This document shows, piece after piece, positions 49,001 to 55,000 of a stretch of 64,000 bases of DNA. The first letter of the stretch is position 1. Every line of letters starts with the position of its first letter. The position numbers and the translations under genes were made by a program. Location of the stretch: assembly GCF_045679555.1 (NCBI RefSeq), contig NC_092091.1, positions 76,363,438-76,427,437 on the forward strand, in the 5' to 3' direction. The notes beneath the pieces were generated by a model. That model had not been told where the DNA came from. It was given only the letters and a program-made list of their open reading frames with translations, and made no database searches. Source of the stretch: Salvelinus alpinus (lineage: Eukaryota; Chordata; Actinopteri; Salmoniformes; Salmonidae).

Positions 49001-52000
49001 CATTTCACGGTAAGGTCTACTTACACCTCTTGTATTTGGTGCATGTGACATATTTGAATTGATTATTTAAACCCAGGTCTGGGCTCTGTGTGTATCAAGG
49101 CTTCCATCTAGTGGTGAGCATGAGCATAACACATATTTAATAGAACAGACGTATCTCTATGGTAACTCACCCGTGACCTTCAGTGTGTAGGGCTGGTTGG
49201 AGTTCATGCTGATTTCCCATAATCCTGTCTGTTTGTTGGAGGCCAGACGGACCCGGTAGAGGTTGCCCACCGTCTGGATGGTCCCCAGTTTCCCGTTGGT
49301 CTCATTCTGTTTCTGGGTCACACCTGTAGGGGCAAGGAGGGTGACAGTCAAATAGGATAACAGTCAAACATACTGTCAATGGGCTATACCTGGTTCGTGA
49401 TACCTTGTTGAAATGTGCTTTGTGCCTTAAAAACATTAAGATAGCTACATACTCAAACACGCAAAACAGGTCAACTGTAACCAATGAGGAGGGAAAACTA
49501 ACCTTAGATCAGTGTCTATGGGAAATGTCATCCTATTCAGTTAGGTGAACCTTTACCTGACAACTGATATTAGATCAGTGTGTAGGTGTTGGAGGTTCCT
49601 ACCTGCAGGGTTCTTCAGGGTGAAGGTGAGGGACTTTCCAGTGATATAGATGGTGATGTTGTTCAGAGACTCGTCCAGCAGGAAGGAGAATGTCTCAGCT
49701 TTGCCTGGGTTCCTCGCTCGCTGTAGGACTGTCACCTGAGGAGGAGGAGGAGGACAGAATGAGTGAGGAAGATAGAAAGAAGAGGTGATGTAGAGTATGT
49801 TGTTGTTTTATTGTAACGTGGAGGATTTAATTATCATAGATATAAATATTATGTCTAGGCATTTCTAAAAATCATTATTTATAAAGCACGTGTTTTTTAA
49901 TTGATCAAGTTTTGAATGATTTCAAATCAACTACTGATCTAAAACAAAATGGCCACCCCCGTTGACTCACCAGAGCGGAGGTGGAGGAGTCGATGATGAC
50001 GTCAGTGGCCTGGGGCAGATTGTCTTTGGTGACTCCAATGGCCTGACCACCAGACGCCAGCGCCAGGTCCTTGTAGGTCTCGAATGTAGCTGCCCTGGAC
50101 TCTCCTCCACGCCTCCTCCTTCTAGCACCAGCACCATCACCAGTCAGGAAGAAAGACACCTGGAGAGACACATAGGTGTGTTTGAGAGAGTTTGCCTGGT
50201 CGTATTCATTAGGCACCAAATGAAGAATGAAAGAAAAAAGAGAGTGACTTCCTCTCCAATAAGAATTGCTTGTTTTCATTTGCCGTTGCAAAACATTTTG
50301 CTGCGGTTTGCTAATGTGTGCCCTAATTAATAAGATCCTGAACTGTAGGACATGGTTTCTTCTAAAACAGGAAGTGTTTGAGGAGGTGTTTGAGGAAGTG
50401 CTCACGGCTGACTTGGTGCTCCTGATCAGGGCCAAGATGGTGTCCCATAACGCGATGTCCTTGGCAACGGCATCTGTGAAAACAAAGATGTGGGACGACG
50501 CAGGGGCACCGGTCAGCGCCAACTGGGGAGAGAGAGAGAGAAAGAGAGAGAGATAAAGAGAGAGAGAGAGAGAGAGAGAGAGAGAGAGAGAGAGAGAGGG
50601 AGAATGCTTAGTTTCTTTATTTATTGTCAGGTGCACTGTAAAGAAAGAATGGGATTATATTTGAAAGCTGATTGGAATATAGCCATGTCAATCACTGTAC
50701 CTGTAGGCCTGATAGGCACATCTCAGGGAAGTCTCCGCCTCCATCAGCCTTGAGTTTCGCGATCTCTGTTTTCATAACATCAGAGTTTGTCGTTCTTATC
50801 AGGGGTCCGAACCCTACACACACACACAAACACACACTGATCACTAACCACTTCCTGACTTAACTACAGACATCACCAGCATTTCGGTGACTGCCAGAGT
50901 TTGTCAGTGATGTTTCGCTAAGGATAATGCTTGGTGGAGTGTAAAGCCAGCTTTACCTGGGTCGTTGAATGGGACCAGGATGTACTGGGAGGGCTCATCC
51001 TGCGTTCCCTTCTTGCTGTCGATGATCTTATAGACGACTCGTTTGGCTTCAAGCATATCATCCATCATGCTCCCCGTAGTGTCGATCACAAAAGCAACCA
51101 CTGACGATCGCGCTATGCCCATGAGGCTGTGGGAGAGAGAGAGAGATAGAGAGATTGTGAGTAACTTCAACATGGGTAATTCCCTCTTACCCCCCTCTCC
51201 TCCCCTTCACCCCTCTAACCCTCTCCTTCCCTTCACCCCGCTCTACCCCTCTACCCCTCTCCTCCCCTTCACCCCTCTACCCCTCTCTTCCCCTTCACCT
51301 CTCTCCTCCCCTTCACCCCTCTACCCCTCTCCTTCCCTTCACCCCGCTCTACCCCTCTACCCCTCTCCTCCCCTTCACCCCTCTACCCCTCTCTTCCCCT
51401 TCCCCTTCACCTCTCTCCTCCCCTTCACCCCTCTACCCCTCTCCTTCCCTTCACCCCGCTCTACCCCTCTACCCCTCTCCTCCCCTTCACCCCTCTACCC
51501 CTCTCTTCCCCTTCACCTCTCTCCTCCCCTTCACCCCTCTACCCCTCTCCTTCCCTTCACCCCGCTCTACCCCTCTACCCCTCTCCTCCCCTTCACCCCT
51601 CTACCCCTCTCTTCCCCTTCACCCCCCTCTACCCCTCTCCATACCGTAGGTAGTCGTTGTCACCGGCGGCTCCCCGGATGTCGTCCAGCAGCTGGAGGGT
51701 GGCGGTCGTTGCCACGGTGACAGCAGCGTTGTGCAGGGCCACGTTGTCAGAGCGACGCTCGTCCTTGCTGATGCCCCCACGAGGAACCTCAGAGCTGGTC
51801 AGGTCAGCTGCACCACCATGACTGCACTTACCTGGGAGAAGAGAGGTGATGATGGGTGTTATACAGAGAGTGTGCGGGTATCTGTGGAAGGTAGTGTGTG
51901 TGTGTGTGTGTGTGTGTGTGTGTGTGTGTGTGTGTGTGTGTGTGTGTGTGTGTGTGTGTGTGTGTGTGTGTGTGTGTGTGTGTGTGTGTGTGTGTGTGTG

Positions 52001-55000
52001 TGTGTGTGTGTGTGTGTGTGTGTGTGTGTGTTTAGGCTTAGCTGCAGAGAAGATCCCCATGTACCCAGAGGTGAGTTTCTTCTCATTAAGAATGTTAGGC
52101 AGGATGGAGTTGGAACAGATCCCCCCATTGGCACAGTCACTGCAGGTCGGGGTTTTAACATCTACAAAACCAAAACACAACTTTCAAGGGTCGTTCTTCA
52201 ATTACGGTGACAAAAAAAATAGCAGATTTATTTTTATATGAATGCATTTGGGGACATCTTCCCATTCTAAATGAACCAATATGGCAGCTTAATAACTTTA
52301 CATAGTTTTTACCATTAAAATAACATTGTACCACCTGTAGGAGTAGTAATATCAATGATTGTAACACCAAGGAGACATTTTAAGTAAATTAGGATTTTCT
52401 GAAATGGAGGCCACAAATCCTCAAATCTTTAAAAATGATTTACTAGTGCTATGATTAATTATTTTGCTCAGAGTGTTATTTCCCTTCATTTAAATTGACT
52501 AACACCAAGTGACACATTGGATTGAGCAACACCAAATTTTCCACGGAATCAGTGGATAAAAGGGTATGATTAGCTAATCGTGTTCTTTAACATATAGACT
52601 CCTCCCAACTAACAGTTTGCCGCTGGGGAGAATGATCAAGGACCTTGAATATCTTTGTCATCAGAGATTTTCAAGGTGGTGACACCAATGACATAAACCT
52701 GAGGGACACACATTATACTAGCAACAAAATAGGTATTTTAATAGCCTTTGTTTTTATATTTTTTATACAATATATTCTATAATTTTGTTCACTGTCTATT
52801 CAACCCTTTGCCTTGATGACAGCTTTGCACACTCTTGGCATTCTCTCAATCAGCTTCACCTGGAATGCTTTTCCAACAGTTTTGAAGGAGTTCCCACACA
52901 TGCTGAGCACTTGTTGGTTGCTTTTCCTTCACTCTGAGTCTGACTCATCCCAAACCATCTCAATTTGGTTGAGGTCGGGGGATTGTGGAGGACAGGTCAT
53001 CTGATTCACTCTCCATCTTGGTAAAATAGCCCTTACATAGCCTGCAGGTGTGTTGGGTCATTGTCCTGTTGAAAGACAAATGATAATCCCACTAAGCCCA
53101 AACCAGATGGGATGGCATATCGCTGCAGAATGCTGCGGTAGCCATGCTGGTTAAGTGTGCCTTGAATTCTAAATAAATCACAGACAGTGTCAACAGCAAA
53201 GCACCCCCACACCATAACACATCCTCCTCCATGCTTTATGGTGGGAAATACACATGCAGAGATCATGTGTTCACCCACACCGCGTCTCACAAAGACACAG
53301 CGGTTGGAACCAAAAATCTAACATTTGGACTCCGGACCAAAGGAGAGATTACCACCGGTCTAATGTCCGTTGCTCGTGTTTCTTGGCCCAAGCAAGTCTC
53401 TTATTATTATTGGTGTCCTTTAGTAGTGGTTTCTTTGCAGTAAGTTGACCAGAGGGTAGTGAGGTCTGCACAACGCATCACCGGGGGCAAACTACCTGCC
53501 CTCCAGGACACCTACACCACCCGATGTCACAGGAAGGCCATAAAGATCAACAAGGACAACAACCACCCAAGCCACTGCCTGTTCACCCCGTTATCATCCA
53601 GAAGGCGAGGTCAGTACAGGTGCATCAAAGCAGGGACCGAGAGACTGAAAAACAGCTTCTATCTCAAGGCCATCAGACTGTTAAACAGCCACCACTAACA
53701 TTTAGTGGCCGCTGCCAACATACTGACTCAACTCCAGCCACTTTAATAATGGGAATTGATGGAAATTATGTAAAAATGTACCACTAGCCACTTTAAACAA
53801 TGCCACTTAATATAATGTTTACATACCCTACATTACTCATCTCATATGTATATGTATATACTGTACTCTATCATCTACTGCATCTTGCCATCTTTATGTA
53901 ATACATGTATCACTAGCCACTTTAAACTATGCCACTTTATGTTTACATACCCTACATTACTCATCTCATATGTACATACTGTACTCTATACCATCTACTG
54001 CATCTTGCCTATGCCGTTCTGTACCATCACTCATTCATATATCTTTATGTACATATTCTTTATCCCTTTACACTTGTGTGTATAAGGTAGTAGTTGTGGA
54101 ATTGTTAGGTTAGATTACTTGTTGGTTATTACTGCACGGTCGGAACTAGAAGCACAAGCATTTCGCTACACTCACATTAACATCTGCTAACCATGTGTAT
54201 GTGACAAATAACATTTGATTTGCTTTGATTTGATTTGACCATGAAGGCCTGACTCACACGGTCTCCTCTGAACATGTTGAGATGTGTCTGTTACTTGAAC
54301 TCGGTAAAGCATTTATTTGGTCTGCAATTTCTGAGGCTGGTAACTCTAATAAACATATCCTCTGCAGCAGAGGTGACAGTTTCATCATAGTTTCATCATA
54401 GTTTCATCATAGCGCTTGATGGTTTTTGTGACTGAACTTGAAACTTTCAAAGTTCTTGAAATGTTCCGTATTGACTGACCTTCATATCTTAAAGTAATGA
54501 TGGACTGTCATTTCTCTTTGGTTATTTGAACTGTTCTTGCCATAATATGGACTTGGTCTTTTACCAAATAGGGTTATCTTCAACACAACTGATTGGCTAA
54601 AACACATTAAGAAGGAAAGAAATTCCACAAGTTAACTTTTAAGAAGCCACACCAATTAATTGAAATGCATTCCAGATGACTACCTCATGAAGCTGGTTGA
54701 GAGAACGGCAAGAGTGTGCAAAGCTGTCATCAAGGCAAAGCGTGGCAATTTGAAGAATCTCAAATATAAAATATATTTTGATTTGCTTAACACTTTTTTG
54801 ATTACTACATGATTCCATGTGTTATTTCATAGTTTTGATTTATTCACTGTTATTCTACAATGTAGAAAATAGTAAAAATAAAGAAAAACCATTGAATGAG
54901 TAGGTGTTCTTATACTTTTGACTGCTAGTGTAGATGGGTTTCAGTATAAAGGACTTACATGTTATTATTTTTTAAATAACAGTTAACTAAATTGTCAAGG

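Follow-up and report, generated by a model that had tools for sequence, protein, structure and literature searches.

One of five neighbouring tandem copies of a vwa7-type gene in Salvelinus alpinus has lost the 5' splice site of the intron between exons C and D, and a long CA repeat now abuts the exon; both are genuine features of the assembly. Our reading is that this is probably a lineage-specific loss, with exon C mostly skipped, the gene copy decaying, and the reading frame that runs open through the repeat incidental. The copy (c1; its sisters are c2 to c5) lies on the minus strand of the window, the 64,000-nucleotide stretch that was analysed.

The domain content of c1 places it in the VWA7 family. 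Translation of exons A to N, joined into a protein of 696 residues with exon C supplied with the G present in the sisters, gave five Pfam matches above the cut-off, in the order VWA7_N (PF25107, E-value 3.3e-68), VWA_4 (PF25106, 1.4e-60), hemicentin-type GBD (PF23560, 5.8e-40), VWA7 beta-sandwich (PF23610, 1.7e-07) and Ig_VWA7 (PF23619, 1.3e-26). Exon 1, which encodes the signal peptide, was located in all four sisters; its expected site in c1, upstream of exon A, is a run of N, and the idea that c1 has lost this exon was withdrawn.

Features of the c1 gene copy (window coordinates)
Feature	Position	Strand	Remark
Exon A	56951..57095	-	first readable exon
Exon B	55669..55762	-	ends in phase 1; B-to-D join in frame
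Exon C	52031..52161	-	131 nt (132 nt in the four sisters); VWA7_N (Pfam); last base and donor gone
(CA)69 repeat	51894..52031	-	start of former intron, abuts exon C; TRF
Donor-loss junction	52030..52031	-	AAA|CACA here, AAAG|GTACA in the sisters
Former intron C-D	51832..52030	-	199 nt without an in-frame stop; 67 codons once the two leading bases of exon D are added
Exon D acceptor CTTCTCCCAG and donor-like GTAAGT	51826..51841	-	AGGT core; candidate donor at 51831
Exon D (KCSHGG...)	51645..51831	-	187 nt
Exon E	50957..51126	-	start of VWA_4 (A) domain
Exon F	50701..50813	-	
Exon G	50406..50522	-	
Exon H	49971..50159	-	
Exon I	49603..49735	-	
Exon J	49171..49323	-	
Exon K	48820..48912	-	
Exon L	48034..48302	-	donor AAC|GTAAGT, with C at -1 where the four sisters have G
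Exon M	47622..47755	-	donor CAT|GTAGGG, with T at -1 where the four sisters have G
Exon N	47222..47381	-	
Exon O	44108..44407	-	first of three tandem copies within c1

On the minus strand exon C ends in ...GCT AAG CCT AAA at 52031 and the CA repeat follows at once (TRF: 51894-52031, period 2, 69.0 copies, 100% matches, an array that includes the last A of the exon). The earlier note had claimed that no GT occurs before or inside the repeat, and indeed GT is absent from the end of exon C to the end of the repeat, leaving intron C-D of c1 outside the GT-AG rule at its donor. The first GTs 3' of the repeat are at 51864 (TCT|GTATAA) and 51831 (CAG|GTAAGT, where exon D begins); those inside exon C are at 52159, 52140, 52134, 52116 and 52064. 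The acceptor described in the note is present, its AG ending at 51832, and the span 51645-52161 singled out there is exactly the fused exon of 517 nt that would arise if the intron were kept. Rare donors, which the note had proposed to check, offer no usable site of either the GC-AG or the AT-AC type. In the stretch that runs from exon C up to the first bases of exon D, all GC sites score -7.6 bits or less on a hand-entered donor matrix in which any GC costs about 6.6 bits; ATATC is absent from the stretch, and no scored GT site reads GTATCC, as an AT-AC/U12 donor might. Two GTs within exon C were considered as cryptic donors and rejected as weak: 52064 (TGG|GTACAT, 1.5 bits), which gives a stop if joined to D and an open frame if joined to E, and 52140 (GCA|GTGACT, 1.8 bits), which is open if joined to D.

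That an intron once stood here, as the note had supposed, is confirmed by the other copies. A search with exon C returned at least nine matches, on C6 and C13 (only the best candidates were scored), and the exon pair C-D has, besides c1, at least eight matches in the genome; all eight carry a GT donor, in phase 1 and at the same place. By this comparison, the donor loss is a derived change specific to c1, in which GGTA or more is missing where the exon meets the repeat. If the ancestor resembled c5, the deletion took at least 4 bp (GGTA or AGGT); if it resembled c2-c4, at least 8 bp. It has no exact size because it abuts the repeat. Among the donors of exons A to N in the five tandem copies, 69 of 70 are GT, that of exon C in c1 being the sole exception, and the acceptors of exons A to O are all AG (75 of 75). 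The notion that the repeat had replaced the donor is right in that the donor is gone; the repeat itself, however, is common to all five tandem copies, lying 3' of the donor in the four sisters, and only a few donor bases were deleted at its edge.

We propose the following course of events. In the four sisters the donor of intron C-D directly adjoins a CA-rich microsatellite, and in c1 a small deletion beside the repeat would have removed the last base of exon C together with the GT, the absence of which is seen in the assembly. The donor being gone, exon C would most often be skipped, the likeliest outcome because this exon is frame-symmetric: exon B would join exon D in frame, and the modelled product is open over all 652 codons. 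It would be without 44 residues, including three cysteines of VWA7_N. Some transcripts may be spliced from CAG|GTAAGT at 51831, with a frameshift and a stop in exon E, and others may keep the intron, which would then be an in-frame His-Thr insert. Judging from sequence, the likeliest outcome is skipping of exon C, then use of the 51831 donor, then retention (+66 residues); frame-preserving skipping and the donor-like site are better grounded than read-through. The review PMC6060985 describes mutations of canonical sites as leading mostly to single exon skipping, though a weak site may yield to a cryptic one. The donors of intron C-D in the sisters are already weak (3.7-4.0 bits, on the hand-entered matrix). 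As with the type I and type IV mutations of that review, both of which lose intron positions +1/+2, skipping or use of a cryptic site would be expected in c1; unlike the disease alleles covered there (PMC6060985), the loss in c1 affects a tandem gene copy at the edge of a microsatellite and is seen in the assembly.

The coding sequence of c1 points modestly to relaxed constraint, as in a pseudogene. Private changes in c1 are 22 nonsynonymous to 8 synonymous, against 46:52 in the pooled sisters (p=0.013), a test that rests on 30 changes in c1 and may be blurred by gene conversion between copies. The individual sisters stand at 4:9 (c2, identical to c4), 7:12 (c3) and 35:31 (c5). With codons hit twice removed, c1 still differs from the rest (p=0.026); the support is modest because the comparison with c5 alone falls short of significance (p=0.075). 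Expressed relative to neutrality, the private-change ratio is 0.92 in c1 and 0.15-0.38 in the sisters. Two further donors, those of exons L and M, no longer have G at -1 in c1, whereas all four sisters keep it. Stops and frameshifts, as a pseudogene might show, are absent from exons A to N of c1 when the missing base of exon C is supplied; exons A to N are free of stops in all five tandem copies, and the three copies of exon O in c1 are all open. Apart from its donor, c1 therefore looks clean, as a working gene also would. Since its substitutions are near-neutral, c1 is probably on the way to losing its function, with the four sisters providing cover; we regard it as probably mis-spliced and decaying. 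Tandem duplicates can degenerate, and c1 resembles such cases in that its private substitutions are near-neutral and it has a splice lesion, with sisters intact in exons A to N, but differs in that its own readable exons A to N are still without a stop or frameshift. If c1 is simply mis-spliced, this is the kind of step by which duplicates ordinarily decay. Five tandem copies that share one intron with a repeat at its start, one of them without a donor and all with open readable exons, nevertheless make a natural experiment, and copy-specific RNA could reveal how a vertebrate cell handles a donor-less intron. Among the matches listed in our literature search (fish vwa7; repeat-linked donor loss), judged by titles and the beginnings of abstracts, no paper dealt with this locus.

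A different outcome, possible though on the unlikely side, is that the acceptor of exon D, through its AGGT, works as a putative dual-specific site: it would serve as the donor now that the upstream one is gone, the exon would extend from 52161 to 51832 (330 nt), exon D would be skipped, the frame would break in exon E and c1 would be a null copy. CAG|GTAAGT scores 12.6 bits, the best donor-like site in the scanned stretch, against 6.1 bits for exon D's own donor (both on the hand-entered matrix), and in the modelled product a stop falls at codon 194 of the partial protein; joining 51832 to exon F instead keeps the frame open. PMC10809524 reports AGGT sites that serve as 5' splice sites or as 3' splice sites, the AGGT core being what c1 shares with them, but puts such use at 0.713% of annotated 3' splice sites (1971 of 276,517) and notes a tendency toward weaker, not stronger, scores. 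Unlike the sites of that source (PMC10809524) that are used both ways, the one in c1 is a candidate judged by its AGGT core and its score, and its GTAAG encodes Gly-Lys. This route overlaps with our preferred reading, in which it is a minor one.

Retention of the whole intron, yielding a 517-nt exon and a protein with a (HT)23 tract and about 20 further residues, is unlikely. The intron is short (199 nt) and without a donor, short introns can be retained, and the earlier note was right that the frame runs open from exon C into exon D: the 199 nt contain no stop, and of the 67 codons, which take the place of one Gly codon at the normal junction (net +66 residues), 46 are (HT)23, in line with the roughly 23 Thr-His pairs and 20 other residues it gave. 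The insertion would not fall just before the A domain, as had been stated, but within VWA7_N, which it would split (at about 164/165 of the 230 profile positions); it lies at about residue 123 of the partial protein, and VWA_4 starts at residue 196 (Pfam). The fused exon would also be longer than the other exons of the model (93-300 nt). An open frame across a CA repeat means little, which calls for caution, because all frames of such a repeat are free of stop codons and roughly a third of the possible lengths lead into exon D in frame; the open frame in c1 is no more than chance would give. In c4 an open in-frame stretch of 199 nt, as long as that in c1, follows AAA, yet the donor is intact. 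The repeats of c2 and c4 have 76 and 64 CA units and are in different frames despite identical exons A to N. The frame is thus no evidence for read-through, for which we find no support, and looks like chance. The idea that selection conserves the frame was likewise rejected, as tract length modulo 3 varies among the five copies, even between c2 and c4. The proteins hnRNP L/LL bind CA repeats, according to PMC3823766, and their effect on the c1 intron cannot be predicted.

It is also doubtful that GGTA(CA) was dropped in assembly, beside a long dinucleotide repeat within an array of near-identical tandem copies, and that the true donor is normal. The lost bases do abut a pure repeat of 138 bp within a five-copy array that contains runs of N, and the identity of c2 and c4 (no difference over the 696 codons of exons A to N; they differ in exon O) could reflect assembly trouble. 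Against this, the exon sequence is clean on both flanks of the junction, the search with exon C gave, among the best candidates scored, no copy outside the nine matches on C6 and C13, and c1 must be a distinct locus rather than a chimera of its sisters because it carries 30 private coding substitutions.

Very improbable is a microsatellite turned coding once the donor was lost, with a secreted VWA7 bearing a length-polymorphic His-Thr tract in its N-terminal domain and CA slippage toggling the frame on and off from one allele to another, in the manner of bacterial contingency loci. The repeat tract also varies in make-up among the sisters: in c3 the CA repeat comes after a run of AAAC units.

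The minus strand of the window carries a vwa7-type gene (copy c1), for which 15 exons (A to O) were defined using a diverged copy, L029, as the guide for delimiting them. Joined exons A-N match five VWA7-type Pfam domains. Exon C of c1 runs straight into a CA repeat, and we found no GT donor from the end of the exon to the end of the repeat, nor any usable GC or ATATC site. The 199 nt of this intron are open in frame throughout. Both the missing donor and the open frame into exon D reported in the earlier note are thus confirmed, including after the search for GC-AG and other rare donors that it had proposed. 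The inserted residues, which it had placed just before the A domain, would lie instead inside the N-terminal domain VWA7_N, ~73 residues upstream of the A domain according to Pfam.

Searches of the genome (2.37 Gb in 928 contigs; window, C6:76363438-76427437) gave nine matches each for exons C and D, the window copy included; these searches score best candidates only, and here nine of nine were scored. A GT donor is present at the same phase-1 position in all eight other copies found. A CA repeat adjoins the donor in the four tandem sisters of c1 (c2 to c5, likewise on C6) and in L029, and is absent beside the donor in the three copies on contig C13; in c3, a stretch of AAAC units separates donor and repeat. 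This distribution indicates that the repeat is common to the C6 copies, that the intron preceded it, and that the donor was lost in c1. We read the defect as a derived loss of the donor, confined to this one tandem duplicate, situated where a microsatellite begins and real as far as the assembly goes; such events are ordinary. Relative to a c5-like ancestor the deletion removed GGTA (or AGGT) at the least; relative to a c2-c4-like ancestor the minimum is 8 bp, made up of one AAA repeat out of two together with GGTAC. Its exact size is hidden by repeat slippage. It is unlikely that the deletion is an assembly error.

Positions of features and exon C donors of the vwa7-type copies (window coordinates unless stated; / marks the exon-intron boundary)
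Feature	Position	Strand	Sequence
Exon C, c1	52161-52031	minus	ends GCT AAG CCT AAA, then directly (CA)69
Exon D, c1	starts 51831	minus	preceded by CTTCTCCCAG
Exon O, three copies, c1	44407-44108, 37025-36726, 34056-33658	minus	
52-bp and 48-bp satellite arrays	37605-42497, 34638-35110, 60845-64000		
Isolated 3' end copy	116687-116289 of joined C6 stretch		
Donor, c2 (L003)	C6 76.457 Mb		AAAG/GTACAA
Donor, c3 (L002)			AAAG/GTACAA
Donor, c4 (L004)	C6 76.558 Mb		AAAG/GTACAA
Donor, c5 (L005)			AAAG/GTACAC
Donor, diverged copy (L006/L029)	C6		GCAG/GTACAC
Donors, three further copies	C13		AAAG/GTAGAG or AAAG/GTAAAG

Across the five tandem copies, 69 of 70 donors of exons A-N are GT, the c1 exon C donor being the exception, and AG is found at all 75 acceptors of exons A-O. 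Exons A-N contain no stops or frameshifts in any of the five (c1 exon C with its missing base supplied). The -1 G is also changed at the c1 donors of exons L (12.5 to 8.1 bits) and M (8.9 to 5.3 bits; hand-entered donor matrix). Private substitutions in exons A-N of c1 number 22 nonsynonymous to 8 synonymous, near the neutral 3:1, compared with 4:9 in c2 (= c4 here), 7:12 in c3 and 35:31 in c5 (Fisher's test: against all sisters, p=0.013, or 0.026 without codons hit twice; against c2 and c3, p=0.0026; against c5 alone, p=0.075). These ratios modestly favour relaxed constraint on c1. Conversion between tandem copies is likely, because c1 exon C is nearest to c5 (97.7%) but exon D to c3 (97.3%).

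The open frame itself is most likely not meaningful. A CA repeat is stop-free in every frame, so that an open frame depends only on its length and on the tail. By length, the intron joins exon D in frame in c1, c4 and c5 and out of frame in c2 and c3; the tail after the repeat contains a stop in c5. Copy c4 has a normal donor and 199 open nt following AAA, as in c1. Copies c2 and c4 are identical throughout the 696 codons of exons A-N (exon O differs), yet they have 76 and 64 CA units and different frames; the intron frame is thus free to drift. The in-frame His-Thr tract, which the earlier note had put forward as a possible read-through product, is most probably incidental. The identity of c2 and c4 over these exons, ~100 kb apart, may go back to a duplication that is very recent, to conversion or to an artefact of assembly.

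The splicing outcomes that we infer for c1, given a real deletion, follow three routes. Both ends of exon C (132 nt in the sisters) are in phase 1; skipping it would therefore join B to D in frame with the loss of 44 residues, including three cysteines. VWA7_N would then match in two stretches, its Pfam score falling from 229.9 to 159.6 bits (scored on a query that stopped with exon E, downstream of VWA7_N). Single exon skipping is described as the usual result of canonical splice site loss in PMC6060985, and we give this main route roughly an even chance. The probabilities of the best explanation and its rivals overlap, because the former admits a mixture of routes. A less probable second route would use the candidate donor CAG/GTAAGT at 51831, the top donor-like site of the stretch scanned (12.6 bits, hand-entered donor matrix). 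Joined to exon E it would bring the partial protein to a stop after 193 codons; joined to exon F the frame would stay open. AGGT sites acting as both 5' and 3' sites are documented, yet in PMC10809524 they make up only 0.713% of annotated acceptors. Slightly less probable again is retention of the intron, which would create a 517-nt exon and add 66 residues.

Some further features of the copies may be recorded. Exon 1 is seen in the four sisters; its expected place in c1 is an unreadable run of N. In L029, about nine tandem units of the exon E 3' end, donor included, occupy ~4230-4900, giving one intron many donor-like sites within it. An isolated 3' end copy (exon O plus C-terminus) lies between c2 and c3 at C6 ~76.48 Mb, where the exon C and D searches listed no match. 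Copy c1 contains exon O (300 nt, phase 0-0) in triplicate, each with an open frame and AG acceptor; the first two have a GT donor and the third bears the hydrophobic C-terminus and stop. Exon O is also triplicated in c3, and in c2, c4 and c5 the exon O found runs on into the C-terminus. Satellites of a 52-bp unit (94 copies and a second block of 9) and a 48-bp unit (66 copies) lie in or beside introns of the c1 gene, and stretches of the 48-bp array are present in the four sisters too.
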